Of a DNA stretch of 64,000 nucleotides, positions 1 through 46,490 are shown piece after piece. Each line of letters begins with the position of its first letter. Position 1 is the stretch's first letter. Origin of the DNA: Xiphophorus maculatus. Its lineage: Eukaryota; Chordata; Actinopteri; Cyprinodontiformes; Poeciliidae. The notes below the pieces were generated by a model that saw only the letters and a program-made list of their open reading frames with translations, searched no databases and was not told the DNA's origin. Both the position numbers and the translations under genes were made by a program. The DNA lies in NCBI RefSeq assembly GCF_002775205.1, contig NC_036460.1:806501-870500 (forward strand), written 5' to 3'.

Positions 1-3000
1 ATGAAGGCTTAATACGTCCCTGCTTAACGACAAGGTATTCATTGTGTTTATTACAGAGGAGCTCAAGATATACCTAGAAACTAATACATCTACAGAAACA
101 ACACCTCTGATATTATGGGACTGTGCCAAAGCATTCCTTCGGGGCCGCATAATATCCTTCACATCTGCGAGGAAAAAACAGAAGAATGCTAAACAAAAAG
201 ATTTGGAGGACAAAATTAAAGAATTAGAGCTTAAACATAAAAGACACGCTTCAGCTAAAATCTTGAAGGAATTAAATGTAACCCGCAGACAACTAAACAG
301 CCTACTGTCAGATAAAGTAGAGGGCAACTTGAGGTTCACTAATCAAAAATATTATGAATATGGCCAGAAGGCTAGTAGGTTATTGGCATTTAGATTGAGG
401 AAACAACAGTCCTCCAACATGGTTCATAAAATAAAATCCCAAGAGTCTATAGAGACAAGACCTGACAAAATAGCAGAGGCCTTTGCAAAATTTTACAAAT
501 TATTATATACAAACACCGATACCTGTAATAATGACCAAGAGCTCACAGATTTTTTAAATAATATAAAATTGAACCACTTAACGGATGAGGCGGCGTTGAA
601 CTTAGATCAACCGATTGAGGAATGGGAGATCAAGCAGATAATTAAGTCACTTAAGAACAACAAAAGTCCAGGCCCAGATGGATTTACAAACGACTTTTAT
701 AAAACTTTTCTAGATCTTCTGGCCCCCCTGCTATTAAAAGCATATCACCATGCTTTAAAATCCAAAACTATGGCATCATCTTGGACAGAAGCCACTATAG
801 TAGTAATCCACAAAGAGGGTAAGGATCCTACAGACTGCCAGTGCTATAGACCTATATCACTGTTGAATACAGATTCACGCATACTCACAGCAATCCTAGC
901 AAGACGACTTAACAAATTCATCACCCAAATCATACATCCCGATCAGACAGGATTTATTGTAGGCAGGTACTATGCTGATAATCTAAGGCGCTTACTAAAC
1001 ATAACAAGCGTTCAAAAAGAGAGAAAGATTGAATCAGCAATCATATCCTTAGATGCCCAAAAGGCGTTTGACAGAGTGTCTTGGAAATACTTAATTCATA
1101 CTTTGAAATGTTTTGGATTTGGCCCACATTTTGTTGACTGGGTGCAAACACTTTACTCCTCTCCACAGGCAGCAGTTAAAGTTAATGGCTTTAGGTCTGC
1201 TAGATTTTCATTAGAACGGGGGTGCAGACAGGGGTGCCCGCTCTCACCCCTTCTGTTTGCCATTAGTATTGAACCGTTAGCCCAAATCATTAGAGATGAT
1301 GCTAATATTAAAGGGATAGAAATTAACAAGGAAGTACACAAAATCTCATTATATGCTGATGATGTATTATTGTATTTGACGGAACCTAAATCAACAATCC
1401 CCCACCTGGAAGAGCTCATCTCTCAATATGGATTTTACTCAGGCTACAAAATCAACATAGAAAACACGGAAGCTATGGATGTAAATGGCACAATTTCAGA
1501 CTTCATAAAAGTACAGAGTGGCTTTAAGTGGCCCAAGAACGGTATCAAATATCTGGGTATTCAAATACCTCCACTTCTATGTGACCTCTATGAGGCAATC
1601 TATAGCAAACTTCTACGAGTCATCAAAAATGACCTGGAGCGTTGGGATACACTCCCTATCTCTCTGATAGGTCGTGTTGAAAGTATCCGTATGAACGTTT
1701 TACCAAGACTACTCTATCTATTCCAGATGCTACCGGTGGAGATTCCCAAATCTACTTTTGACACTTTAGATAAAATGATAACTGGATTCATTTGGCAAAA
1801 AAAGTGACCTAGAATCAGATTGAAAACCCTGCAGTTACCTAAACCCAAAGGGGGCCTCAAACTCCCAAACTTCAAATATTATTACTGGGCTGCACAACTT
1901 AAACCCTTATTAGTATGGCTACAGAATAGTGCAGATACTCGTTGGCTGGAAATAGAGGAAAGCAGGTGCTCAATACCACTACAAACATTACCTTTCTTAG
2001 ATACTCCTGCAAAGGAAATGACAATCTGGACAAAAAACACCCTGAAAGTTTGGAACAAAATACAATCGGCTTTTAAATTATCAAAACAGATTTCACTTTT
2101 ATCAAATATAGGATATATAAAGACATTTACACCGAACAACTTAGATTCTGGGTTCAAAAACTGGTCTAATTATGGGCTATCTCATATCCACCAATTAATT
2201 AATAAGGGGAATTTCAAAACCTTTGAACAGATAAAAAGTGAATTTGGCCTCCCTAAGACGGACTTCTATCGATACTTACAACTTAGAACCTTTGTGACGA
2301 CACACAACAATTGGACTAAACTTCTTGAATCTACACCTATAGAAAATTTCCTAATGGACATACAAAGGGGAAAGGGAAATGATAAAGTAATTAGTAAAAT
2401 ATATGACTTGTTTCTGTCCATAAATGTGCACGATTCCACAAACATAAAGCATAAATGGGAGACTGAATTGCAGGAGTCAGTAGCAGGGGACACATGGGAA
2501 GAAATATGTACTGAAGCACAATTAACAACAAATTCTAATACATGGAGAGAATTCAAATGGAAAGTAATAGTCTGGTTTTTCAGAACACCAGCAATAACCA
2601 GTAAAATGGACCCAACACAACCCAGTCCATGCTGGAGAAACTGTGGGACGCAGAATGCAAATCATACTCATATCTTTTGGGCTTGTCCTAAACTAAGTGT
2701 ATTCTGGGAGGACATTTTTGAAGCTCTCAAGGTAATTTTCAGAAGAAATGTTCCAAAAACCCCCTTGGTGGCAATTTTGGGAGTAATACCCTTTGGATTG
2801 GAGAGGAAGGATGATAGATATCTTCTAAGAATCTTGCTCACAGCAGCATTGAAATGCATAACTATCAGATGGCTGAAGCCAGGACCTCCTACATATAACA
2901 CATGGATACAAAAAGTTTGGGACATTCATTTGATGGAAGAAATCACATATTCCTTAAGGCTTCAAAAAATAGTTGTTAATATAAGGTGGAGCTTCATACC

Positions 3001-3322
3001 GTTATTATTTCAGTGACACAATTACAGGATTGCCCTTTTGCACTTGTATGTTCTCTTGGGTCGGTCTAAAATACCAAGGTGTAAAAAACTTTAACTCAGG
3101 GGGGATTTAATCGTATGTTTTGTATTTATTTTATTTTGCTGTTATCTGTCTGTTGATTCCGTTCTGTTGTTCTGTAATCATTATTACATTTGTTAAGAAC
3201 ACCTACTGTCTCATCTCCTGTTGCCAAGTTATGATGCAGATGATAAATGTCAGTAAGAGACGGAAGAATGTAACCTTGAACATGTGTTGTTAAAAATAAA
3301 TAAAAATAAAGTTAAAAAAAAA
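1..3322 (+). mobile_element. L1-clade LINE, 3' part
   Basis: This is the 3' portion of a teleost L1-type non-LTR retrotransposon; its 5' end, including the endonuclease domain, lies beyond the left edge. Visible parts are the linker, the reverse transcriptase and the C-terminal zinc-knuckle region of ORF2, then about 300 bases of 3' UTR ending in an A-rich tail near 3290-3322. It lies antisense to the Delta-type gene and probably inside one of that gene's introns. Only a few disabling changes are visible in 3 kb, so it is a fairly young insertion. The matching target-site duplication cannot be checked because the 5' end is missing. Confidence 0.93.
2..3016 (+). pseudogene. L1 ORF2 (reverse transcriptase), two stops
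   Basis: ORF2 encodes the protein that nicks target DNA and copies the element's RNA. One frame runs across the whole stretch, broken by TGA at 2-4 and TGA at 1805-1807. The second lies where a basic K-R-rich linker is expected, and CGA to TGA decay of an arginine codon would explain it. The RT core is intact: the first catalytic Asp sits in LDAQKAFDRVSW (about 1051-1086), and the YADD box is at 1352-1363. The C-terminal CCHC knuckle (CWRNCG...HTHIFWAC) lies at about 2629-2690, as in vertebrate L1 ORF2. The piece from 1820 to 3016 stays in the same frame, so no frameshift is needed. Confidence 0.92.
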
Positions 3323-16158: not shown

Positions 16159-25219
<9,061 letters not shown>

Positions 25220-28460: not shown

Positions 28461-30705
28461 AATAGAATAGAATAGAATAGAATTACTTTATTCATCCCAG
28501 CAGGGAAATTATTCCGCAGTTACAGCAGCATAGAGACAAGACACACAACAACCACCACTGAGTAGCAATTGTAGACAAAATAAAAATAAAATATAACATG
28601 CTGTCAATATAAAAGCAGCTTAGAGCAGTCCTTGCAAGGATTCAAAAAATGCAGATATGTATATGTAAATATATGTACAGCAGTGTGCCACAGTACAGTT
28701 GTGCAAATTGTACTGATTAGTGCAGAACAATGATTTAGCTTTTATTGTACAGTGAGATGGCATGTGGCAGGAAGGATTTCCTGTATCTGTCCCTACGACA
28801 GCGGAGCTGGAGCAGCCTATGTGAGAAGGTGCTCCGCTGTCTGTCCACTATGTGGTGGAGAGGGGGCTGTTTATTGTCCATCATAGACAGAACCTTCTTC
28901 AGTGTCCTCCTCTCCACCACAGTTTCCAGGGACTCCAGCCTTAGTCCCAGTACAGAGCCAGCTTTCCTGATGATTTTGTCCAGTCTATTAGAGTCGCTGG
29001 CTCTGATGCTGCTTCCCCAACACACAGCAGCAAAGAAGATGGCGCCGGCAACAACACTGTGATAAAAGGTCTCCAGCATCTTGCTGCACACATTGAAGGA
29101 TCTCAGCTTCCTTAAAAAATAGAGTCTGCTCATCCCCTTCCTGCACACAGCGTCAGTGTTAGATGCCCAGTCCAGTCTGTTGCCGATTACAACTCCCAGG
29201 TATTTGTAATCCTCCACCTCCTCCACCACTTCCCCTTTGACCTTTAGTGGCCGTGAAGGTATCTTCTTCCTTCTGAAGTCAATCACCATCTCTCTGGTCT
29301 TACTAATGTTGAGCCTCAGGTGATTCTGGTCAGACCACTCCACAAAGCCGTCCACCAGTGTCCTGTACTCCCCCACCCCTCCAGCCCCTATACACCCGAC
29401 AACCGCTGAGTCATCAGAAAACTTCTGTAGGTGACATGATTCAGAGTTGTACTGGAAATCAGTGGTGTACAGGGTGAAGAGAAAGGGAGAAAGCACAGTT
29501 CCCTGTGGAGCTCCTACGTCACTGACCACCACATCAGACAGGACACTGCCCAGACGGACAAACTGTGGCCTGCCTGTCAAGTAGTCAGTAACCCAGGAGA
29601 TCACTGAGTCGTTGACACCCATCCTCCGCAGCTTCTCACCCAGCAGCAGAGGCTGGATGGTGTTGGAGGCACTGGAGAAATCAAAGAATGTGATTCTCAC
29701 AGTGTCTCCTCCACCATCCAGGTGTGACAGTGCTCGTTGCAGCAGGAAGATGACGGCATCGTCCACTCCTAAGTGGGGCTGGTAGGCAAATTGCAGGGGG
29801 TCTAGAAACGTCCTCACCTGAGGCCTCAGCTGGGCCAGGACCAGTCTCTCCATGACCTTCATCACATGAGATGTGAGAGCAACTGGTCTGTAGTCCTCTG
29901 GGTCGGATGGCCTTGGCTTCTTGGGAACAGGAACCACATGTGATGTCTTCCACCGCAGCGGGACTCTCTCCAGCCTCAAGCTCAGGTTGTACATGTGTGC
30001 CAGTACAGGGGACAGCTGGATGGAGCAGGTCTTCAGGATCCGTGGTGTAATGCCATCAGGTCCTGCAGCCTTCCCCTGGTGTAATCGCTCCAACTGTCTC
30101 TTAATCTGGCCTGTAGTCACCGTTAGCTGGGGGTAGGTGTTGTTGTCTGCAGTGGAGATGGGGGAGGAGGGGGGGGCTGAAGGAGAGGGATGGTGTGCAG
30201 GAGAATGCAGGTAGGTGGTTTGAACGACTTGGGGCAGTGTGGATGTGTGGGGGGCTGGTGGTGGTATGGGAGTAGCAGGAGGTGAGCTAAACCTGTTGAA
30301 AAACTGGTTAAACTGGTTTGCTCTATCGAGGCTCCCAGATGTCTGTGTGTCCTTCCCCTTCATTCCAGCGATGTTCTTCATTCCTTTCCACACATCTCTC
30401 ACACTGTTCTGCTCGAGTTTGGACTCAAGCTTCCTCCTGTAGTTGTCCTTGCATGTCCTCAGTGTCTCTCTGAGTTCACGCTGGACTCTCCTCTGCTCCT
30501 CCTTATCTCCAGACCTGAAAGCCATCTTCTTTTTGTTTAGGTCACTTCAGGTCGCTGGTAATCCAGGGTTTGTTGTTGGAGAAGCAGCGCACGGTCCGGG
30601 CTGGCATGACAGTGTCCTCACAGAATCTGATGTAGTCCGTGATGCAGTCAGACATGTTGTCTATGTCCTCCCCATGAGGCCCACAGAGCACATCCCAGCG
30701 GCTTC
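28461..30705 (-). mobile_element. Rex1-like LINE (5' truncated)
   Basis: CR1/Rex1-type non-LTR retrotransposon on the minus strand. The 3' end is an (ATTCT)n tail (28461-28482) preceded by CTGGGATGAATAAAGTA. The same 3' end occurs alone at 46491-46590. It is 5' truncated near 30705, inside the linker before RT (WDVLCGPHGEDIDN). Confidence 0.88.
28735..30705 (-). pseudogene. Rex1-like ORF2 (RT), one frameshift
   Basis: The main open frame is 30525-28735 (596 codons). The frame upstream (30705 to about 30545: DVLCGPHGEDIDN, VRCFSNNKPWITSDLK) joins only after a one-base shift near 30540. RT motifs include GKAAGPDGI, YRPVALTS, FDFSSASN (usual Phe replaced by Ser), GAPQGTVLSPFLF and FSDDSAVVG in place of YADD/FADD. 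Endonuclease is missing through 5' truncation. It would have acted in copying its own RNA at the integration site. Confidence 0.9.
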
Positions 30706-32869: not shown

Positions 32870-35800
32870 CTAGGCAACTTTCTCTTCTCTGTGGATCTTC
32901 ATGTGTGTATTTAAGGTGGACTTGCGGTTAAAGTGCCGTCCACAAATGTCACAACCAAATGGTTTTTCTCCAGTGTGGATCCTAACGTGTCTGTCTAAAC
33001 TGGTCTTCAGGTTGAATCTATACCCGCAGACTTTGCAGCAGAAGGGTTTCTCCCCTGTATGGATGATCATGTGTTTCTTCACACTGGGCTTCGCTGTGAA
33101 CCTTTGCCCACAGAGATGGCAGCCAAATGGCTTCACTCCCGAATGCACTCTCATGTGTTTGTTTGCAGCTGATTTGACCATGAATCTCTTCCCACAGAAA
33201 TCACAGGCATATGGTTTCTCCCCAGTGTGAATTCTCAGGTGGAAGGTCAGGTCGGTTTTGTTGGTGAACCTCTTGCTGCACTGAACGCAGCCAAAGGGTT
33301 TCTCTCCTGTGTGGACCTTCATGTGTCTGGTTAAATGCGACTTGCGGCTGAATCGTTGTCCACAGACGTCGCAGTTGAGCGGCTTCTCTCCGGTGTGGAT
33401 TCTCTGGTGGGTGTTTAGATGCGACTTGGATCTGAAGTCTTGTCCACACACGTCACAGCTGTAGGGTTTCTCCCCTGTGTGAATCCGAATGTGTGCTTTC
33501 AGATTCGCCTTGTAGAAAAATTTCTGCCCACAGAGATCACAAACAAATGGTTTTTCTCCGCTGTGGATTCGCAGGTGTGAATTCAAGCAACTTTTACTGG
33601 TGAACCTTTTAGTGCACTGGTTGCAGCCAAACTGCTTTTCTCTGATTGGTTCCTCTCCAGAGTGGGCTTTCATGTGTCGGTTCGCTGCCGACTTGTCCTT
33701 GAATCTTTGCTCGCACATGTCGCAGCCAAATGGTTTCTCGTCAGAATGAACTCTCTGGTGTGAGTTGAGGCGGCACTTACTAGCAAACTTTCTGCCGCAT
33801 TTCTCACACTGGAAGGGTTTCTCCCCAGAGTGGATGGTCATGTGTCTGTTCAGGTGAGACTTTCGACCAAATCTTTGCTTGCAGACGTCGCAGCCAAACG
33901 GTTTCTCCCCTGTGTGGATTATTGTGTGAAGGTTTAAGTGACTTTTTCTCTTGAAACTTTTCCCACAGATGTCACAACTAAAACATTTCTCCTCCTTCCC
34001 GTCAGGTCTTTGTTGTGAATGACTTGCCATGTGACTCTGAAGGGAGCGCTTGGAGGCGAACCGTTTACTGCACTCGGCGCAGCTCCAAGCTCTGCTGGGA
34101 ATTCTCCCCTTCACCTTGCGAAAGCCGCTCTCCTCACAGTCGTCTTCACTCCCTTCGGTTTCAGCCTCGGAGTCTGACAAGGGCTTGAGTTGAGCGTCAG
34201 AATGGTTCTCATCATCACCCTCCTCTTCCTCGCTGACCTCAGTGTCTGAAGAGCTGGAAGTGTCTCCATGTGTGTTGGGATCTGAGATCCTTCTGGATCT
34301 TCCTCCTTCTCCATCCTCTTCATCGCTTTCTGACTTCATCTGGTTCACCGAGCTGATGCTAGGGAGAGCGCCCAGTAAGACCGGAGGCTTCTCCTCCTCT
34401 TCCTCATCTTCGTCCTCACTCTTCACTCTTCTTCTGGTGCTCTCCATCTCCTCATTCATGTCCAGCTGCTCCCCCGCCACACTGTCCCAGAGCTCCTCCT
34501 GCTCCTCCTTGATCCGGACGGGTTCTGGGTCCCAGTCAGAGCGGGGCTCCTCCGGGGAATCTTCTCTGACGGTGGCAGTGGGACGAACGTCTGCAGGGAA
34601 CCACAAGATGGACGTTACAAGCATCTGCTCAAGTCGATGTTGAAAACATACAGAAATAGAACAGGAGCCACTAGAAATGAACCCAACATGTTCATTCTAA
34701 TCAATTAGTCTCCTCAGCTTCACTCACACCGAGCCTGGTTCTGATTCTGCTAGAACGTCCTGGAGTTGTTTCTTTCCACTGTCGCCCTGTGCATCCCTTG
34801 GAAGAATCCATCCATTTTCTAACACCTTGTCCCTACTGGGGTCAGGAGGAGCTGCTGCCTGTCCAGCGAGAGGCGGGGTCACCTGGACAGGTCGCCAGCC
34901 TGTCGCAGGGCAACACAGAGACAGACAGGACAAACAACCAGGCACACACACACACACACACACACCCCTAGAATTTAGAGAGACCAATTATCCTGACAGT
35001 CATGTTTTTGGACTGTGGGAGGAAGCCGGAGAAGCGGAGGGAACCCACCATGCACAGGGAGAAAATGCTAACTCCGTGCAGAAAGACCCGGACCAGGAAT
35101 CGAACCCAGGACCTTCTTGCTGCAAGGCCACCGTGCCACTGTGCCACTGTGCAGCCCCCCTAGGAAGAATAACTCCTCTAATAACTGAACCAGAATCTGA
35201 ACCTACTGAAGCTAAAACTGTCAGAAACTGACATGTTATACATATACAAGAAAATCCATTTCTGCTAACATTGCATGTTAGAGTAATGACATGAAACAAG
35301 AAAAACTGAAATATTAAAGCTTTTTCATAATTCCAACTTGAGACAACGTGATTTTTTGATCGTTTTGAAATAGGAGCAATAAAATGTTTTCTTGTTGCCT
35401 GAGAATTAGCAGCATCAACAAAAGGTTTAACAGTTTCAATCCTGAAGCTCCTTGTGGATGTAATTGGCATCAATTACAATAACTGTCAGCGCAATGTTTA
35501 CATTTATATTCTCTAATTGATTCAACGTCTGATTAGCAGCAAAAACGAAAGTTTGTTGCATAATGGGATATAAATTTATATCCTACTGCCTCAAAGGTCT
35601 TAGCTTCAGAAATCAGGGCAGAATAACTGGTGCAGTCACAGCTAACCTGCGACTTATTTTAATTTATGTTTACATTTAAAACTCTTGTTCTTATTTTCTG
35701 TCCTGTTGTGTTTCTCTAATAAAACTTTGGGAAACAACATCGCGCCAAACTGTCTCTATGTACAGTTCAGTGTGTTAATAATAATGAATAGAAGGAGAAA

Positions 35801-36113
35801 GCATGTTCTGTATTTCCCGCTCTCATTACTTCCGAGTTCATTGAAAGGTCACGCGGATAACGACGTTAACGTCAAAAGTCAGTCTGACTTTTACCGTAAT
35901 AACCGTGTGAGCGGAGCTAATTTTAGCATCGAGCTAACCTCCGCTGTTTTGACTGAAGCAGCTCCCGGCCTGCAGCTCCCATCCCGGATGAAGAAGGTAA
36001 ATCTCCAAACCTGATGTGTGCAGCCGATGTTCGGGGCTGAAAGCAGCATCCAGTATTTCGTGTCTCTGCTCCTCTGCTGCATCCAGTCGCTGTTTGACCT
36101 GCTGTCTCCACAT
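32870..36113 (-). CDS. C2H2 zinc-finger protein 1 (14 fingers)
   Basis: A probable DNA-binding nuclear regulator. Exon 1 is 36113-36011 (34 residues, MWRQQVKQRLDAAEEQRH...RLHTS, phase 1); exon 2 is 34590-32870, giving 607 residues. The donor (GTTTGG) is weak but the phase fits. After exon 1 comes VKEE/IKEEQEEL-type acidic sequence (Asp/Glu/Ser-rich, about residues 40-190), then 14 C2H2 fingers (CxxC...HxxxH) mostly joined by TGEKP-like linkers. The linker between fingers 5 and 6 is longer (EEPIREKQ). A SINE sits in the intron. The first exon and promoter are nearly identical to those of zinc-finger gene 2. It resembles the large teleost family that pairs a short helical exon with a DV..(K/R)EE exon; no orthologue can be named. 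Start ATG is the first in frame after an upstream stop. Confidence 0.82.
34803..35160 (-). mobile_element. tRNA-derived SINE, second family, copy B
   Basis: Reading the minus strand: a tRNA-like head with box B-like GGGTTCGATTCC, then GGAGTTAGCATTTTCTCCC, CCTCCCACAGTCC, a TG run and CCCTGCGACAGGCTGGCGACC. Flanks share GGAAGAAT (34800-34807 and 35163-35170). It lies in intron 1 of zinc-finger gene 1. Same family as 54411-55009. Confidence 0.82.
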
Positions 36114-36400
36114 CTCTGCTAGCTTTTCTCTCTCCAAACTTTCCTTTAACAGTTACTGAGCAGTTCCAGCTGAGCCTCAAACCGTTTCTCTTCTTTCCAG
36201 GGTTCACCAACTGCTGCTGTTTCTGTCTTACAGCTTTATTAACTCTCCCGCTGCTGCTCCGTGGACAGAAACCCGAGAAAACACGGAGGACGGCGCTCCA
36301 ACTGCCGCCATTGTACCGGAGAGAAGCACGAGTCTGCGCACTGGGGTCAGAGGCTGGAGCCGCCAATCACGGAGTAGAACACCAGGAAGTCCCGCCCACA
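35957..36400 (-). repeat. Duplicated promoter + exon 1 block, copy 1
   Basis: 444 bases matching 45819-46262 at all but one position (36292 G against 46154 A, a CpG-type change). It covers exon 1 of zinc-finger gene 1, its intron donor and about 290 bases of 5' UTR/promoter. The flanks on both sides are unrelated. Confidence 0.95.
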
Positions 36401-36910
36401 TTAAGTTTCGCCACACGTTTCGTTGCCGCCATGTTCCGAGTGGCATTTTCTTCACAATAGAAGCTGAATTTGTAGCACATTTCTTTGCAAGCTGTTTATT
36501 CTGTGATGCATTTGAAATGCAGTATATTTTTAAATACATCGAATAATTAAATTAACTTTAATGTGATGAAATAAGTACCCAGTACTACAATGTACCCAGT
36601 AAAAGTTAAACATTTCTAGACCTCCATTGACACAAAAGGTGTATTTTAAATTTCATTTAGACTAATTAATTTTTTTTCCAGCTAGTTGAGCATTTTAAAA
36701 ATAGAACTTTAACTGCATCGTTTAAATTAAATCTAAATGCTTCAACTATTACAGTGAAAGTTGCACAATAAAATAAAACTGAGAAAGTGTATATATAATA
36801 ATTAAATCATGTCTCCAAATTGATATGAAATATTTTGGTTTCCTATTGAAGGATCAATAATTATCCATTCAGCAAGTTCCTTGTTCTTTTTAATGTAACT
36901 CATCCAACGT

Positions 36911-39235
<2,325 letters not shown>

Positions 39236-39377
39236 ATTATATAAAAACATTTTAGCAAAAGCTGCTGTTTGAATTGCTGGATTTTTTTCTTTTAATAGGG
39301 CTGATCTAAATGTACTGATAAAACAAAAACAGTGAAAAATGCACAATGTTCAACAGATTAGAAATTAAAGCAATTTG

Positions 39378-39567
39378 GGCATGCCGTGGTGGTGGAGGGG
39401 TTAGCGCGACCCACATTCAGGCAAACGTAGCAACGCAGCCGTCACGGGTTCGACTCCTGGACCCGACGACGTTTACCGCATGTCTTCCCCCGTTTCCTGT
39501 CAGCCTACTTTGAAAAAAGGGACACTAGAGCCCACAAACAGACCCCTTGTGGGGCGATAAAAAAAAA
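39378..39567 (+). mobile_element. tRNA-derived SINE, copy 2, with exact TSD
   Basis: Same family as 4890-5099 (GCATGCCGTGGTGG..., box B-like GGGTTCGACTCC, tail of A). Identical 18-base target duplications AGAAATTAAAGCAATTTG lie at 39360-39377 and 39568-39585, which defines both ends. Confidence 0.92.
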
Positions 39568-40171
39568 AGAAATTAAAGCAATTTGTCTCCAGTAATTAAA
39601 GAAACTTCAAATCTCCAAGAACGTTCAGTTGTTCTCCCCCATCATCTTTTCTGATTGTCCAGCTCAGAGGACAGGGAAGGCGGATGCAGTCCACATGGAG
39701 TCTCTTGTTGGTCGTAACAGAAACTATCCCACATCTGTGCAGGAAGTTGAGTCTTCCTTGAGTGTCATGCCACAGCAGCATCAGAGGAAACACTGAATGT
39801 TTTGCTCCAAACACACACAAAAAAATCAACAAATCTCAGGACTTTGAATTTGATTAAACGTGATGATTTATTTATTTTTTCAAAGTTGTGTCCGTTGACG
39901 TATTTACGACAATCAGCTGAAACATTAGGACCACAAACAGCTGCAGGCCGGCTAACATCTTCCTCACACTGTCTGGAGGGCAGACGGGTTCTCACACACT
40001 TGAAGGTTCTGGCAGAATGAAAGCCAAGTTCTGTTGGACCACCTTGATTTGAAATAAAAACTTAAAGGACTTTGGACCTCTGAGCAGCAGTCTGGTTCTG
40101 GTTCTCCTCAGCCCATGTTCTGGACCCGTCTGAGCACCGTGGGTCTAGATGTTCTGATTCGGTCTGTTACT

Positions 40172-40505
40172 ATGTTAGCTCTAGCTACTGGTGTTGGCTC
40201 CAGCTAATGGTTTTAGCTCCAGCTAATGGTTTTAGCTCCAACTAATGGTTTTAGCTCCAGCTAATACTGTTAGCTCCAGCTAATGGTATTAGCTCTAGCT
40301 ACTGGTGTTGGTTCCAGCTAATGGCACTAGCACCAGCTACTGGAGTTAGCTCCAGCTAATGCTATTAGCACCAGCTAATGGTGTCAGCTCCAGCTAATTG
40401 CACTAGCTCCAGCTAATGGTGTTAGCTCCAGCTAATGGTTTTAGCTCTAGCTACTGGTGTTGGCTCCAGCTAATTGTTTTAGCTCCAGCTAATTTTTTTA
40501 GCTCA
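40172..40505. repeat. 18-bp minisatellite (TTAGCTCCAGCTAATGGT)
   Basis: About 18-19 imperfect copies of an 18-base unit near TTAGCTCCAGCTAATGGT. Variants (CTCTAGCTACTGGTG) recur in higher-order order. It starts about 390 bases past the stop of zinc-finger gene 2 and may fall in its 3' UTR. Confidence 0.93.
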
Positions 40506-40894
40506 TGGGTCTAATTCATGAGACTCATTGAAGAGAACCAATGATGTTTTGTCCTTCAGAAAACAAGCCCACAGATCACCATTGGCTCCTTGTTTCAGAC
40601 AGTAGGGGGCGCTGCTGGTTACAATGGGATGTGCTGACCAAAGATAAGCCTGTTTAAAATTCAGCTGAGTCTTTGCTGCTGAGACGACGGCAGATACATC
40701 AGCACTTTTCTCAACAATCTGATAAAATCGACTATCGATTATTGTCTGTTCTGCTCGTGATTAAATGTTTCTGAAACCAAATACATTTTTCATGAAAAAA
40801 AAGAAGCTAAAAAAGTTCTGGAGTAAAGACCCATTTAATTTGCAGTGATCTAAGTCAGAACATGTCCGCGTTTTTTCCTCAACCATCGGAGTAT

Positions 40895-43800
40895 CTAAAG
40901 ATTCTTCCCTGCTGCATGGGTTCTCATGTGCATGTTTAGATTTCCTTTTCGGTTAAATTTTTGTCCACAAACATCACAACTGAACGGTCTGTATCCTGTA
41001 TGGATTTTGATGTGGCTGTTTAAATTTGACTTTTGGTTAAACCTTAGTCCACAAAAATCACAGGCGTAGGGTTTGTCTCCTGTGTGGATCCTTACATGTG
41101 TCATTAAAACTGACTTTTGGTTAAATCTTTGTCCACAAACTTCACAGCTAAAAGGTTTGTCTCCTGTGTGAATAATCATGTGTCTGTTTAAAGCAGATTT
41201 GTGGGTAAATCTTTGTCTGCAAACGTCACAACCAAAAGGTTTCTCATCAGCGTGGCTGCCCATGTGTCGGTCTAAATGTGCCTTTCTACTAAATCTTTGT
41301 CCGCAGACATCACAAGCAAATGGTTTTTCTCCTGAGTGGATTTTGATGTGTCTGTCTAAATAGGCCTTTTCATGAAATCTTTGTCCACAAATGTCACACC
41401 CAAAAGGTTTCTCTCCTGTGTGAATTTTCAGGTGTCTGTTTAAATGGGATTTCCTGTTAAAACTTTGTCCACAAACATCACAGCCAAACGGTTTCTCCCC
41501 GCTGTGGATTTTCATATGTCTGCTTAAATGTGTTCTTTGGCTGAACGTTTGTCTGCAGACGTTACAAACAAATGTTTTTTCTTCTGAATGGATTATGATG
41601 TGTTGGTCTAAATAGGACTTTTCATCAAATCTTTGTCCACAAACCTCACAGCCAAACGGTTTCTCCAAAGTGTGAACTTTCACATGAACTTTGAGATGGT
41701 TTTTCTTGGTAAAACTTTGACCACATTCAGTACATTTAAAACATTTCAGATCTGTCTGGACTTCCCCCTCCTGGTCCATGTTTGTATTCTCTCTGAAGCC
41801 TTTGCAGTCATTCTCATTGCCTTCATCTTCTGACCCAGGGTGGTTCACCTCATCGTCATCATCACTGATCTCTGTCTCTGAAGAGCTGGAAGCGTCTCCA
41901 TGAGGGTTTCGATCCGGATTTATGGTGCATTCTGCTCCTCCATAGCCCTTTTCTGCTTTCAGGTTCTGCTGAGCTGAGCTGCTGCTTGGCAGTTCTTCAT
42001 CTTCTGTTTGATGAAGATGAGAGATCAGAGGTTCCTCTTCATCATCTTCACTCTTTATGAGAACAGCAATGACTGGAGATCTGGAGGCATCAGCCTCCTC
42101 CTTCATGCTGAGCGGCTCCCCCTGCTGGCTGCTCCAGGGTTCCTCTTCTTCCTCCTTTATGTGGACGGGTTCTGGATGGTTCTGGTCCAGATCAGGACTT
42201 GGTTCTTTTTTAACCAGCAGAACATCTGCAGGAAGCATAGAAACATTTATGTACATAATGAACAATGAAACCTGTTAACATAATAAAGACAGTGAAATTT
42301 ACTAGGCCTGTCACAATAACAAATTTTGCTGAGCGATTGTCTCAAAAATTATTGCAATAAACGATAATATTGTCTGAAGACCTTTTTACACTGATATAAT
42401 GGAAATGACGTAATAATGATGTGATTTCCTGCCAAAGATAAATACACTTTATTTTCAGAAGAATATTTAACACTGGAAATGATAAACAAAATAAACAAAA
42501 CAACCAAAAATAAAAACAAAATGGATTCTCAGTCTCCATTAACAAAAAATGTACTTGATAAAAACTAAACAACATAAAGCCAAAGTGGAAATAAATACTG
42601 CATTCAACCAAAAGAGTGCAGATTATGAAGTCTGTATATTATGTTGCCCTTCAGTAATAATTAGATTTAAATAGAGAAGATGGGCACATCGACAACCTGA
42701 TGCAATAATTCACACTACATGATTTTTGCTCCTATTTTTCCCCTTACAACAATCTTAGATCGTTGGTCTTCCTAAGATTGTCGCTTACTATTTCATAACC
42801 GATCATCCTGTAGTTTGTGGTGTGTTACGGTAGATCGTCGTTGCCGCTCTGATCTAAATCAGGGATTTTCCCCGACTAGGAGCTTAACGCTTCCTGTTGA
42901 ATGTGACAGGCAGCCAATCAGAAAGCCTGCATTCCTTCATTCAGTGTCATCAACAGAAAGAGAAAAAGGCCGGAAGAGACGATAATGCCGATAATTAAAA
43001 TCAGGTCAATAGTTTTAATTTAGCGTACGATTAATTGATTTATTGTTTATCATGACAGGCCTAAAACTTATTAATGAAATTATAATTATTACATAATAAA
43101 GCATTTTTAACTTTCAGGAACAATAAAACAGTCAACTGGAGCTTCTGAGATAAACAGGTAGATATTGACATGTAGATATGCAATGCGCCTTTTTCTCAAA
43201 TGTCCTAATCTGCTTTAAAGTACGCAGCACTGAGTTAACAGTCAGCAAACCTCCTAAAGATGATTACTGCATCTTCTTCTTTAAGGAGGCTGCAGTGTCT
43301 AACACTATTAAAGAGACATAAATCAGAGAAGGGTTAGTGATTAAATTGCCTCCTTCTATATTTTTCTGAAATTCTAAAAATTAAACATAATTTTATGTTT
43401 GGGCGATAAACCAAAAATTAACCAAAACCAAGACTCATGACTTTGACCGACGTTATTTGGCCCTAGTCTGTATTTTCCATGTGTTTAAAAAAAGAATAGT
43501 TGTTTTTGTCTCTTTTGGCTGAGAATAGGCAGGCTGCGCTCCTGTCTCTTTAAGACGCTGCGCTGATCATGTGATCAGCCAATCTGAAGCAAGAAGTGAA
43601 CGAGACGGTGAAATTGAGAAAATGGCGGATGAAGCTGCGGCGGTAGAGCCAGTCAGGGAAACACTATGGCTACAGCCTGGACACCTCCTGTGATGTGAGC
43701 TTTATTTTGAAAAGTAAGGATCGGGGGCGTGGCTTATGTTCCGCAGACGGGCGCCATGAGCTGGGCGCCATGAGCTGGGCGCCATGAGCTGGGCGCCATG

Positions 43801-45975
43801 AGCTGAGCGCCTGATACGGCAGGTCTCCGGGCTGAAGCTTCAGTTCAGAAATCTGTTCAGTTGTTCAACAACTCTTAACTAGTACACAAGTTCTTTATTT
43901 ATTTTCAGATGCTGAAGTCCAACAGAACCAGAACCAACCTTCTGCCACTGTCTGTGTTTATATGGATGTCCTTGAACCCTTTGACTAGGTAACCATGGAA
44001 ACCAGACTGAAAGCAGCTGCTTAAATCACCTGATGAGAGCCAGGAGTTTATTATTCAGGTCAGATGGATGAAGTGGGTCGGATATCCAGACAGCAGGAAG
44101 AGGAGCTTCATGGGTTCTTTTGTAGTTAAGTGTTGAAATTGAGACATTTCTCTGCATTTGTCATGTTTGGGTACATTGGTACTGGATTTATTGTGGATGT
44201 GCAGATTAATCCTCTAATTTTTAAAAAATTTCTCTGCAAAAAAGTTGGCAGTAATTGCATTACATAGTGAAGCAAATGCATATTTTTAACTACCTTTTTT
44301 AAAAATCCTTTGTAATAATTTCTTTATTACCCATTATAATTTTCAGCTTTAATAGTTGCTTATTTTTGAATTTGTTTATTGATGTTTCTCAGTGTTTCAC
44401 GGCTCTGGACTCCATCTGTTCAGCTGGTTAAACCTGGACTCATTTAGTCATTTAAACAGTGAATGAAACCCAATTTATTAGTGAAAACACAGAACGTGTT
44501 TCTTCAGGAAATAATAATCTGTCATTGAGTAGCTTCAGCTCTTGACAGAAAATGGCTTGTTGATCAATGGAAGCTAATAATCCTTTTATCAGCCTTTCAT
44601 GTCGTCAAACTTTAAACAAACATGTTCTCTGACGGATCTTCTTAATGGACCTTACCACAGGGCCGCGTTTCATTGGCTGATGCCCATTCTACGTGGCCGT
44701 CTCACAAACACACTTAGCTTCCCGTTAGCTAAGTACAGCATAATGGCAGAACTGATACAACTTGTACACCTTGCAGCCTGTCTGCTACACAGTCTTACGT
44801 TAGCTAAACAGATCAATATGCAATGTGTCTGTATCTGACATACACTAAAGGTTTTATTTTAGCAGAAAAGGCTTTGGACTAAACTGTTACTCCTGTTAGC
44901 CACGTTAGCACCAAGTACAGCTAGTCAGTCAACCATCGCTGTGTTCAGGGAAGCTCTGATTAATAATCAAGAAATAAATATCAAGCCTGGAAACTTGATA
45001 TCGTAACGGACTGAATGTTATGTTTTTAACGTCTTTGCTCGTCTTACGGGGCGCAGGCGGTTGCCACGGTAACAGGTGTGCTTAAACTACAGAGAGAGAG
45101 AGAGAGAGTAAAAAGGTAGGAGTGGTTTTGAGTTGATCACCTGTTCAGGTTATTTTACCTTTGTTTCCCTTTGCTGTGGCTCATTACAGCCGCTGTAGTT
45201 TCTAAACGTTGGACTAATTACCTCGTTAGTTTGTGAGTTTACGTCATTCACAACAAACATCAAATAGAACAAATATATTTCATAAATTTTAACAAACAAA
45301 TGGCTTCTACCGCGGTAATTATGTGAAATTAAATGAATTATATCCCAACTTCAGAAGATTTGCCTTTACCTTTACAGAGCTCTTTGGTTCCTCCTATCAG
45401 TCTGTAGCTTCTCATATTGAGGTCAAAGTTCAGATCTACCATAACTGACTGACACCTGCTGGCCTCAGGTTTGCAACCAGCTTGTGACTGAGAAACCAGT
45501 AACCTCCTCCCAGTTGATGACATGAACTTGTTAGTTCCTCTGTCCATTTAGCAGCTGATTTATTGTGAAAATCCGCTAGAAATGATTCACTAATCAGTCA
45601 TGTTTACATAGAAACAACCAGGCTTTGTTTGTGAGACTTGCGGTCACGTGGGTCGGTTGTGGGCGGAGCTTGGTAAGGTCCATGCAACACAAACTGTCAG
45701 AATGAAAATAAACTTTTGCTTCATTGTAAATGTGCGGCGGCCATATTGGATAAACTCCTAGTTCTGCATCCAAAGAGCATCAAGGACCAACAGCTTCACA
45801 TGTTCTCCTAGAGAACCCAGCAGCTCCCGGCCTGCAGCTCCCATCCCGGATGAAGAAGGTAAATCTCCAAACCTGATGTGTGCAGCCGATGTTCGGGGCT
45901 GAAAGCAGCATCCAGTATTTCGTGTCTCTGCTCCTCTGCTGCATCCAGTCGCTGTTTGACCTGCTGTCTCCACAT
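40895..45975 (-). CDS. C2H2 zinc-finger protein 2 (10 fingers)
   Basis: Tandem neighbour of zinc-finger gene 1 and in the same orientation. Exon 1 is 45975-45873 (same 34 residues as gene 1); exon 2 is 42225-40895, giving 477 residues. Exon 2 starts with D-VLLVKKEPSP and an IKEEEEEPWSSQQGE-type motif, then an acidic/Ser region and 10 C2H2 fingers (first CTECGQSF..., last CDVCGQKFNRKGNLNMH), linked mainly by SGEKPF/TGEKPF. Expected to act as a sequence-specific nuclear factor. Its fingers differ clearly from those of gene 1, so the two probably bind different sites. A hAT-type element starts 77 bases upstream (minus strand) of the exon 2 acceptor, and a TIR element (44645-45683) also lies in the intron. 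Confidence 0.82.
42303..43063. mobile_element. Non-autonomous hAT-type element, short copy
   Basis: Starts TAGGCCTGTCACAATAAC and ends ATCATGACAGGCCTA. Flanks AAATTTAC (42295-42302) and AAACTTAT (43064-43071) match 6 of 8. Compared with 21632-22894 it lacks about 560 internal bases but has about 39 bases (42781-42819) that the other copy lacks. It lies in the intron of zinc-finger gene 2. Confidence 0.85.
43064..44640. other. Intron of zinc-finger gene 2, mostly unassigned
   Basis: No exon supported. ATGGCGGATGAAGCTGCGGC at 43622 looks like a start region, but its frame stops after about 22 codons. A 15-bp tandem lies at 43749-43808. Confidence 0.4.
43749..43808. repeat. 15-bp tandem, four exact copies
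   Basis: Four copies of GGGCGCCATGAGCTG, end to end (60 bases). Confidence 0.95.
44645..45683. mobile_element. TIR element, ATGGACCTTACCA ends
   Basis: Left end ATGGACCTTACCACAGGGCC; right end, inverted, ATGGACCTTACCAAGCTCCG. The arms are diverged but align over about 60 bases, up to a shared GTCTCACAAAC. No clear flanking duplication beyond a possible AT. The interior shares phrases with 50750-51500 (CCAGCCTGGAAAC; GAGTGGTTT-GAGTTG; TTATTTTCCCTTTGCTG). No transposase seen. Family unknown. Confidence 0.65.
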
Positions 45976-46262
45976 CTCTGCTAGCTTTTCTCTCTCCAAA
46001 CTTTCCTTTAACAGTTACTGAGCAGTTCCAGCTGAGCCTCAAACCGTTTCTCTTCTTTCCAGGGTTCACCAACTGCTGCTGTTTCTGTCTTACAGCTTTA
46101 TTAACTCTCCCGCTGCTGCTCCGTGGACAGAAACCCGAGAAAACACGGAGGACAGCGCTCCAACTGCCGCCATTGTACCGGAGAGAAGCACGAGTCTGCG
46201 CACTGGGGTCAGAGGCTGGAGCCGCCAATCACGGAGTAGAACACCAGGAAGTCCCGCCCACA
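45819..46262 (-). repeat. Duplicated promoter + exon 1 block, copy 2
   Basis: Partner of 35957-36400 at a constant offset of 9862 bases, with one mismatch (46154). It contains exon 1 and the promoter region of zinc-finger gene 2. Confidence 0.95.
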
Positions 46263-46490
46263 CAGCGCATCAGCGAGACGTTAACATGTCTGCCATATTG
46301 GGAGGGTCATGTAAGCAATTATGGGATTTTTGATTATTTAAAAGGCGTTTATAGTTTATATTTGACGTGCAAATAGATTTTGTCTCTGTTTGAAACTGAT
46401 TATTCGCCTCAATAATTTGTAGTTGGTAGTAAAACAAAAAACAGTGAATCTTAAATTACCAAGCATAAATTTGTCTTCTTTACTTTACTT

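Follow-up and report, generated by a model that had tools for sequence, protein, structure and literature searches.

In the 64,000-nucleotide stretch of DNA analysed here (the window), two zinc-finger genes, A and B, have an almost identical promoter and first exon in front of different finger exons, and the arrangement recurs in five further genes, C to G, on the same contig. We consider the best reading to be repeated interlocus gene conversion of promoter and exon 1 across this seven-gene cluster, in genes whose introns and fingers have diverged, and from comparison of the sequences we give it a probability of roughly 0.78; the conversion would be recent, and was probably repeated. The kind of process is a known one, concerted evolution by interlocus conversion, here apparently acting on the promoter and exon 1 of finger genes. 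The consequence would be a promoter and N-terminus in common and DNA targets private to each gene. In this way clustered DNA-binding genes could retain a single promoter and N-terminus even as their target specificities diversify. Trees built from exon 1 or the promoter of such genes would mislead, and short reads would be unable to tell the genes apart at their 5' ends.

The near-identical block and its genes

The features of genes A and B are as follows.

35957..36400, minus strand: putatively homogenised block of gene A (promoter, 5' UTR, exon 1 and first 54 intron bases); 444 of 444 bases equal to C and E, one difference from B and D
45819..46262, minus strand: putatively homogenised block of gene B; 1 of 444 bases different from A, equal to D over 444
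36067..36299, minus strand: block core of gene A (block positions 102-334, common to the seven loci); 232 of 233 positions invariant in seven genes
45929..46161, minus strand: block core of gene B; 232 of 233 positions invariant in seven genes
36011..36113, minus strand: coding part of exon 1, gene A (MWRQQVKQRLDAAEEQRHEILDAAFSPEHRLHTS plus the first base of a further codon); ATG and GT donor from the sequence, with an open joined frame of 607 aa
45873..45975, minus strand: coding part of exon 1, gene B, the same 34 codons as in A; joined frame open for 477 aa
32870..34590, minus strand: second exon of gene A, encoding an acidic spacer and then 14 C2H2 fingers (the latter at 32891-34081); Pfam zf-C2H2 6.7e-64
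40895..42225, minus strand: second exon of gene B, encoding an acidic spacer and then 10 C2H2 fingers (the latter at 40916-41734); Pfam zf-C2H2 5.2e-53

Exon 1 contributes 34 codons, from the ATG at 36113 (A) or 45975 (B) to a donor after 36011 or 45873, and exon 2 starts at 34590 or 42225, with the splice sites of both genes inferred from sequence alone. A recount agreed with the finger numbers in the original prediction (14 in A and 10 in B, C2H2, minus strand), and these C2H2 arrays place both among the C2H2 poly-zinc-finger genes. When the first 78 aa of the gene A protein were searched against solved structures, nothing matched. A 5' frame from the upstream ATGGCGGCA was rejected, as by eye it hits a stop and has no in-frame join to exon 2.

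The two blocks had been said to differ at 1 of 444 bases, and this is exact: the lone difference is G at 36292 against A at 46154 on the plus strand, a CpG site when the gene strand is read. The pattern had also been described as one of two genes, which holds for the pair but is too narrow, as there are seven such loci on the same contig of the assembly (C18). Five copies of the block are full (A to E, with 0-1 differences per 444 bases in pairwise comparison), one is at 91% and one is partial at 100%; the ungapped BLAST match of the block to G has 234 bases. The loci span 592 kb in both orientations, and a finger exon follows the block in 7 of 7. The sole variable core position in the seven-gene comparison, 109, is a CpG site. 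Genome-wide there are at least 10 block matches (all such counts being lower bounds), seven on C18 and three weak ones in a zinc-finger cluster on C1, and the exon-2 family matches found on C18 are likewise seven, in the same genes. The block was rejected as a transposable element or LTR promoter, since among the matches listed its copies occur only at those seven loci and, weakly, those three, and its gene-strand ends are TG and CT in place of TG and CA.

Tract ends and flanking homology

Two stretches border the blocks upstream.

36401..36445, minus strand: gene A's own promoter flank, with possible decayed family-promoter homology (ATGGCGGC); 1 of 1000 shuffles equalled the match to E
46263..46321, minus strand: upstream stretch of gene B common to C, D and E and more weakly to F, without a close counterpart in A; none of 200 shuffles equalled the B-C, B-D, B-E or B-F match

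The flanks had been called unrelated. Between A and B they are, with 3 of 10 bases identical in the first ten on either side and chance level beyond; across the whole set the description fails, because C, D, E and F have B's upstream flank in common with it, and C has a stretch just downstream in common with A. The B-E match runs over 45798-46321 at 99.0%. Upstream homology outside the tract was found in 10 of 10 pairs among B to F (0 of 200 shuffles as good), and downstream homology at the same level in A-C, B-E and F-G; none of the other 18 of the 21 pairs had a downstream match that at most 4 in 200 shuffles equalled.

The copies in F and G are shorter. F matches A without a difference over block positions 98-375, a 278-base run, before which it is diverged and gapped (28 of 50 at positions 1-50, 30 of 46 at 51-96); G is identical at 102-334 and then has its own exon-1 end (CGGCTGCACAGATTAG before GT, against CGGCTGCACACATCAG before GT). 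Both carry diverged native promoter or exon-1 remnants beside the tract. Identical runs as long were obtained in 0 of 10,000 permutations for A-F, E-F, A-G and E-G; the run tests inside the block alone for B-C and B-E, where there are 2 differences, were not significant (3075 and 2659 of 10,000). Pre-existing homology past the tract ends is clear in F and G; it is weak upstream of A, where the 45-base test against E gave the match noted above, unlike the longer (200-base) shuffle test, which gave none; and it was not found upstream of G in comparison with E (197 of 1000 shuffles as good).

With seven copies compared, gene conversion is the best-supported process because of the shorter tracts and native remnants in F and G and the decayed homology outside the tract. 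Conversion or a short duplication had been offered side by side in the original prediction; the F and G tracts and the outside homology favour the former, and a single short duplication is insufficient for F and G, though the sharp ends of A are still compatible with one. F and G have tract ends of their own, and the upstream ends vary among A to E as well. On the downstream side, A, C, D and B/E all stop at block base 444, an agreement that an inserted unit would predict and conversion alone would not; this counts against conversion alone, as does the sharp upstream edge of A.

These same features are what would be expected of a duplicative insertion, by template switching or ectopic repair, that placed copies of a promoter/exon-1 unit some 444 bases long in front of several finger exons as a new 5' end: A ends sharply on both sides, and past the common end at base 444 A, C, D and B/E each go on differently, making four continuations. 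We regard such an insertion as rather improbable. The F and G tracts are shorter and abut homologous promoter or exon-1 remnants native to those genes, and for some pairs decayed homology lies outside the ends. Moreover, tblastn of the window yielded no second exon-1 candidate, nor a leftover native exon 1 of gene B (E 0.28 or worse beyond the two blocks), and inspection of the A and B flanks by eye showed no target-site duplication.

An assembly or polishing artefact, with one true block copied onto the other loci, had been named as a further option; it is very unlikely, because the copies are of unequal length and lie at distinct positions along a 33-Mb contig. The seven loci differ in tract length and continuation, their joined frames are open, and polishing would hardly be able to make clearly diverged paralogues identical.

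Divergence outside the block

We find it scarcely credible that strong purifying selection has held an ancient promoter and exon 1 identical. The block does carry the promoter, start codon and exon 1, but identity extends to silent sites, UTR and 54 intron bases, and the C1 paralogues differ from it by 22-28% (in matches of at least 100 bases). The block region is free to change, since those paralogues are only 72-78% identical to it and two of them are 82% alike over 103 bases. The exon-2 leaders of the genes of these two are 83% alike, about as much as their first exons, so that there is no sign of homogenisation in C1. In a 20-kb piece of the C10 cluster, in which the first exons were not located, no common exon-1 island was seen.

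The near-identical tract lies in genes whose other parts are old and diverged, the pattern of concerted evolution. Exon-2 spacer dS is 0.21-1.18 for pairs of A with B to E and of B with C to G (for example A-B 1.18, A-C 0.89 and B-F 1.13), and is 0.58 for C-G. The exception is C, D and E, with dS of 0.01-0.03 and spacers 98.7-99.8% identical; the exon-2 leader is near-identical in all three, and their fingers are unlike. Gene B has a comparable island, past which identity falls sharply.

41965..42223, minus strand: second putatively homogenised island, 5' part of gene B exon 2, with D and E (C in the alignment); 98.5% to D and 98.1% to E over 259 bases

Between the introns of A to F the only resemblance lies in a part of B-E that carries repeats, at splice-site edges and in a single short inverted match between A and D. 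Different DNA targets under the same expression had been proposed; the predicted DNA-contact residues do differ, with no more than one quadruplet in common in any of the 21 gene pairs, and like expression would be expected. The exon-2 tree as drawn places A and F outside the C1 genes, without support; a single C18 clade is not rejected (p-AU 0.459), and a tree conflict is therefore not formally established.

Recent duplication of the whole genes had been judged unlikely, and the divergence of intron and exon 2 leads us to reject it as well; a recent segmental duplication of whole genes likewise fails for want of collinear near-identity across introns and exon 2. Recent whole-gene duplication followed by exchange of finger arrays, through unequal crossing-over inside exon 2, would account for C, D and E having exon 1 and the exon-2 leader in common but not the fingers. 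We give it next to no credence: the introns between the two islands (0.6, 6.2 and 3.6 kb in C, D and E) have no match at E 1e-3 apart from 18 bases at the splice-site edge in C-D, with none in C-E or D-E, and A, F and G combine the common exon 1 with old exon-2 spacers.

Possible mechanism and known systems

Under gene conversion, the copying would be repair on a paralogue template, confined to the islands where paralogues still align, since introns and intergenic DNA appear to have become unalike. A tentative suggestion, which we think possible without favouring it, is that in fish without full-length PRDM9 promoter-directed meiotic breaks make the promoter and first exon conversion hotspots in gene clusters. 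Promoter and N-terminus would then be constantly renewed, fingers and introns away from the breaks would diverge freely, and a self-maintaining repertoire of constant head and variable fingers would result. In swordtail fish without full PRDM9, recombination is described as elevated around transcription starts, CpG islands and H3K4me3 marks (PMC5519329), which could place conversion at promoters; that account concerns crossovers measured in hybrids, as against conversion between paralogues here. In our genome the SSXRD domain had no match over the cut-off (three weak ones, best E 3.59), in line with the absence of full-length PRDM9, although 0 of 14 control genomes gave a match and the search thus had no positive control. 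If true, the promoter-break idea predicts where paralogous conversion should lie in species with and without PRDM9-directed recombination.

Among the papers listed in literature searches, none is seen from its title or the opening of its abstract to describe promoter/exon-1 homogenisation in fish zinc-finger clusters. As portrayed in PMC5363842, mammalian KRAB clusters resemble the present one in that poly-finger genes are clustered, with a common effector part and diverging fingers; gene conversion is mentioned there a single time, among possible ways of duplication. In a protein of the D/E type the first 199 aa had no match in Pfam, KRAB included, which does not place these genes in the KRAB-ZNF family. 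The cyprinid FiNZ genes, as presented in PMC10547256, have two exons, a short N-terminal one and then a finger-array exon, and a first-exon start site similar across genes, for which one morpholino is predicted to cover 447 of 684 genes. They are described there as cyprinid-only, and the likeness is one of layout; 'gene conversion' has 0 mentions in that text. Teleost protocadherin clusters, for which regional gene conversion is reported in PMC1852091, are likewise tandem fish paralogues with one segment homogenised and a putative specificity segment diverse, and raised third-position GC in the homogenised part is a further likeness. According to that source homogenisation affects the 3' coding portion of a variable exon, whereas here it covers promoter, UTR and exon 1, and an intron lies between these and the diverse part.

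A shared promoter and first exon in seven zinc-finger genes

The original prediction described two zinc-finger genes, here A and B, that have a near-identical promoter and exon 1 and different finger exons. We found the two blocks to differ at 1 base in 444, with similarity absent directly outside both, and the finger counts were as predicted. The features of these genes in the window are as follows.

35957-36400, block of gene A
32870-34590, minus strand, gene A exon 2, 14 fingers; block lies 5'
45819-46262, block of gene B
40895-42225, minus strand, gene B exon 2, 10 fingers; block lies 5'

In each block a G+C-rich promoter region and a presumed 5' UTR, both inferred from position, precede 34 codons that open with a start codon and run up to a GT donor; the remaining 54 bases are intronic.

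The near-identity is not limited to two genes, as the blocks of A and B are two of seven such loci on the same contig (C18). A search of the block against the assembly (704,300,149 bases, 101 contigs, with the window at C18:806501-870500; counts are lower bounds) gave at least 10 matches: on C18, five full-length, one at 91% (70-444, + orientation) and one partial (234 bases at 100%), and on contig C1 three weak ones. The chain C18:806501-1070500, which includes 5,000 bases read as N, contains six blocks, each with one finger exon; these exons have 14, 10, 9, 14, 11 and 8 fingers in genes A to F. Gene G, at C18:449 kb, has 11 fingers 4.5 kb beyond its block. A and B are oriented one way and C-G the opposite. 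Joining exon 1 to exon 2 gives a single open frame in A and B, and the joined frames are open in 7/7 genes (464-627 aa), assuming an acceptor ending AAG for G and a donor after CCG for F.

A protein search with exon 1 and the exon-2 leader (the 5' part of exon 2) of B gave at least 33 matches: seven exon-2 matches on C18, which are genes A-G, six exon-1 matches on C18, and 20 on other contigs (C1 3, C10 10, C24 3, and one each on C45, C19, C22 and C5). In the related cluster at C1:31,029,501-31,049,500, which has three exon-2 leaders, two match each other at 95% and the third matches both at 83%; both exon-1 homologues found there have a stop directly after the ATG used by the C18 genes.

Block identity and divergence of the gene bodies

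Over the 444 bases of the block, any two of genes A-E differ at one base or none, and in the core common to A-G (block positions 102-334) 232 of 233 positions are invariant. The exception, position 109, is C/T at a CpG, with T in B and D. Exon 1 of D thus groups with that of B, and its exon 2 with those of C and E; we give the former little weight, because a single CpG site may have mutated twice. With zero differences in 444 bases, divergence is at most 0.0068 per site (95% bound); if rates are assumed to lie between 1e-8 and 3.5e-9 per site per year, this would place homogenisation at most 0.3-1.0 million years ago.

In most pairs the exon-2 spacers diverged long ago (dS: A-B 1.18, A-C 0.89, B-F 1.13, B-G 0.79; A-F saturated). 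Finger arrays are unlike: at the positions that we take to contact DNA, no gene pair among the 21 has more than one quadruplet in common, and that of C-E sits within their near-identical leader. Among A-F, introns (0.6-6.2 kb) did not align except at splice-site edges, in a repeat-bearing part of B-E and in a 34-base inverted A-D match. The C1 paralogues are 22-28% different from the block (matches of at least 100 bases) and 18% from each other over 103 bases, so the block region is not intrinsically frozen.

Low spacer dS among C, D and E (C-D 0.03, C-E 0.02, D-E 0.01; B-C 0.24) marks the exon-2 leader of these three neighbouring genes (C18:1,012,000-1,037,000) as a second homogenised island; their spacers are 98.7-99.8% identical, and their introns and finger arrays unlike. 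B has only the first part of this leader, about 260 bases at 98%, followed by a sharp break.

Ends of the shared tracts

We favour gene conversion of promoter and exon 1 (probability about 0.78) over insertion of a promoter/exon-1 unit ahead of the finger exons, which we consider unlikely. F equals A exactly over block positions 98-375 (278 bases), and over positions 1-96 it carries this promoter in a diverged and gapped form; G is identical over 102-334, beyond which the exon-1 end is G's own variant, with a GT in the corresponding place. Tracts that are shorter and joined to the gene's own diverged version of the region speak against an inserted unit. Identical runs of 278 and 233 columns arose in 0/10,000 permutations for A-F, E-F, A-G and E-G; on the block alone, the run test was uninformative for B-C and B-E (3075 and 2659/10,000).

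Homology beyond the tract was examined by local alignment (21 pairs, 200 shuffles). Upstream, 0/200 shuffles were as good for 10 pairs among B-F, and 4/200 for C-G; downstream, 0/200 were as good for A-C, B-E and F-G; the remaining pairs exceeded 4/200. No match was found upstream of A. A 45-base end-to-end resemblance of A to E there was equalled by 1/1000 simple shuffles; its absence in the local-alignment test makes conversion slightly less likely and insertion slightly more so. Upstream of G no homology was found (197/1000 shuffles as good). By these comparisons F and G clearly retain an older native copy of the block region; the common downstream stretch indicates one in A and C, and in B, D and E the upstream stretch suggests one.

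An inserted unit would yield a common end, and four different intron continuations (A, C, D, B/E) do begin at block base 444 (window 35957 and 45819), past which B and E agree for 21 bases more and A and D for two. A single donor whose homology was interrupted there, by an insertion or otherwise, would produce it too. Upstream ends vary, with 58 extra agreeing bases for C-E, 41 for C-D and D-E, 28 for B with C, D and E, and none for A. The original prediction offered conversion or a short duplication; conversion is the better supported, given the shorter tracts beside native remnants in F and G, and the shared end at 444 is the point that it does not fit.

Precedents, possible mechanism and surrounding repeats

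Conversion that homogenises one region of a gene has been described in teleost protocadherins (PMC1852091), and the C18 genes likewise have homogenised segments. The cyprinid FiNZ genes have the two-exon layout and alike first exon seen here (PMC10547256). The literature searched (titles and starts of abstracts) yielded no description of a fish zinc-finger cluster with homogenised promoters and first exons.

Swordtails have a PRDM9-beta gene without KRAB and SSXRD, and their crossovers are more frequent around transcription starts, CpG islands and H3K4me3 peaks (PMC5519329). For SSXRD, a search of the X. maculatus genome, run without a positive control, gave no match over the cut-off. Breaks might land on the cluster promoters and sometimes be repaired from a paralogue, which would homogenise promoter and exon 1; we hold this link only tentatively, and consider it rather doubtful. 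By itself it leaves the exon-2 island of C, D and E unexplained, and no such homogenisation was seen in the C1 cluster. Block G+C is 0.54-0.55 in A-E (flanking 500-base stretches, 0.27-0.47), with CpG observed/expected of 0.60-0.62; the raised G+C agrees with biased conversion, but also with any promoter.

Long open frames resembling LINE reverse transcriptase (by eye) lie at 5-3016, 28735-30546 and 36899-38832, one of them directly upstream of the gene A promoter. A minisatellite (40173-40504; 19-base unit, 17.5 copies) lies about 0.4 kb 3' of the gene B finger exon. A repeat at 42303-42781, in the gene B intron, and 21643-22894 has copies 95-98% alike and ends like those of a DNA transposon, as judged by eye; C18 has more copies around 1,034 kb and 1,067 kb.
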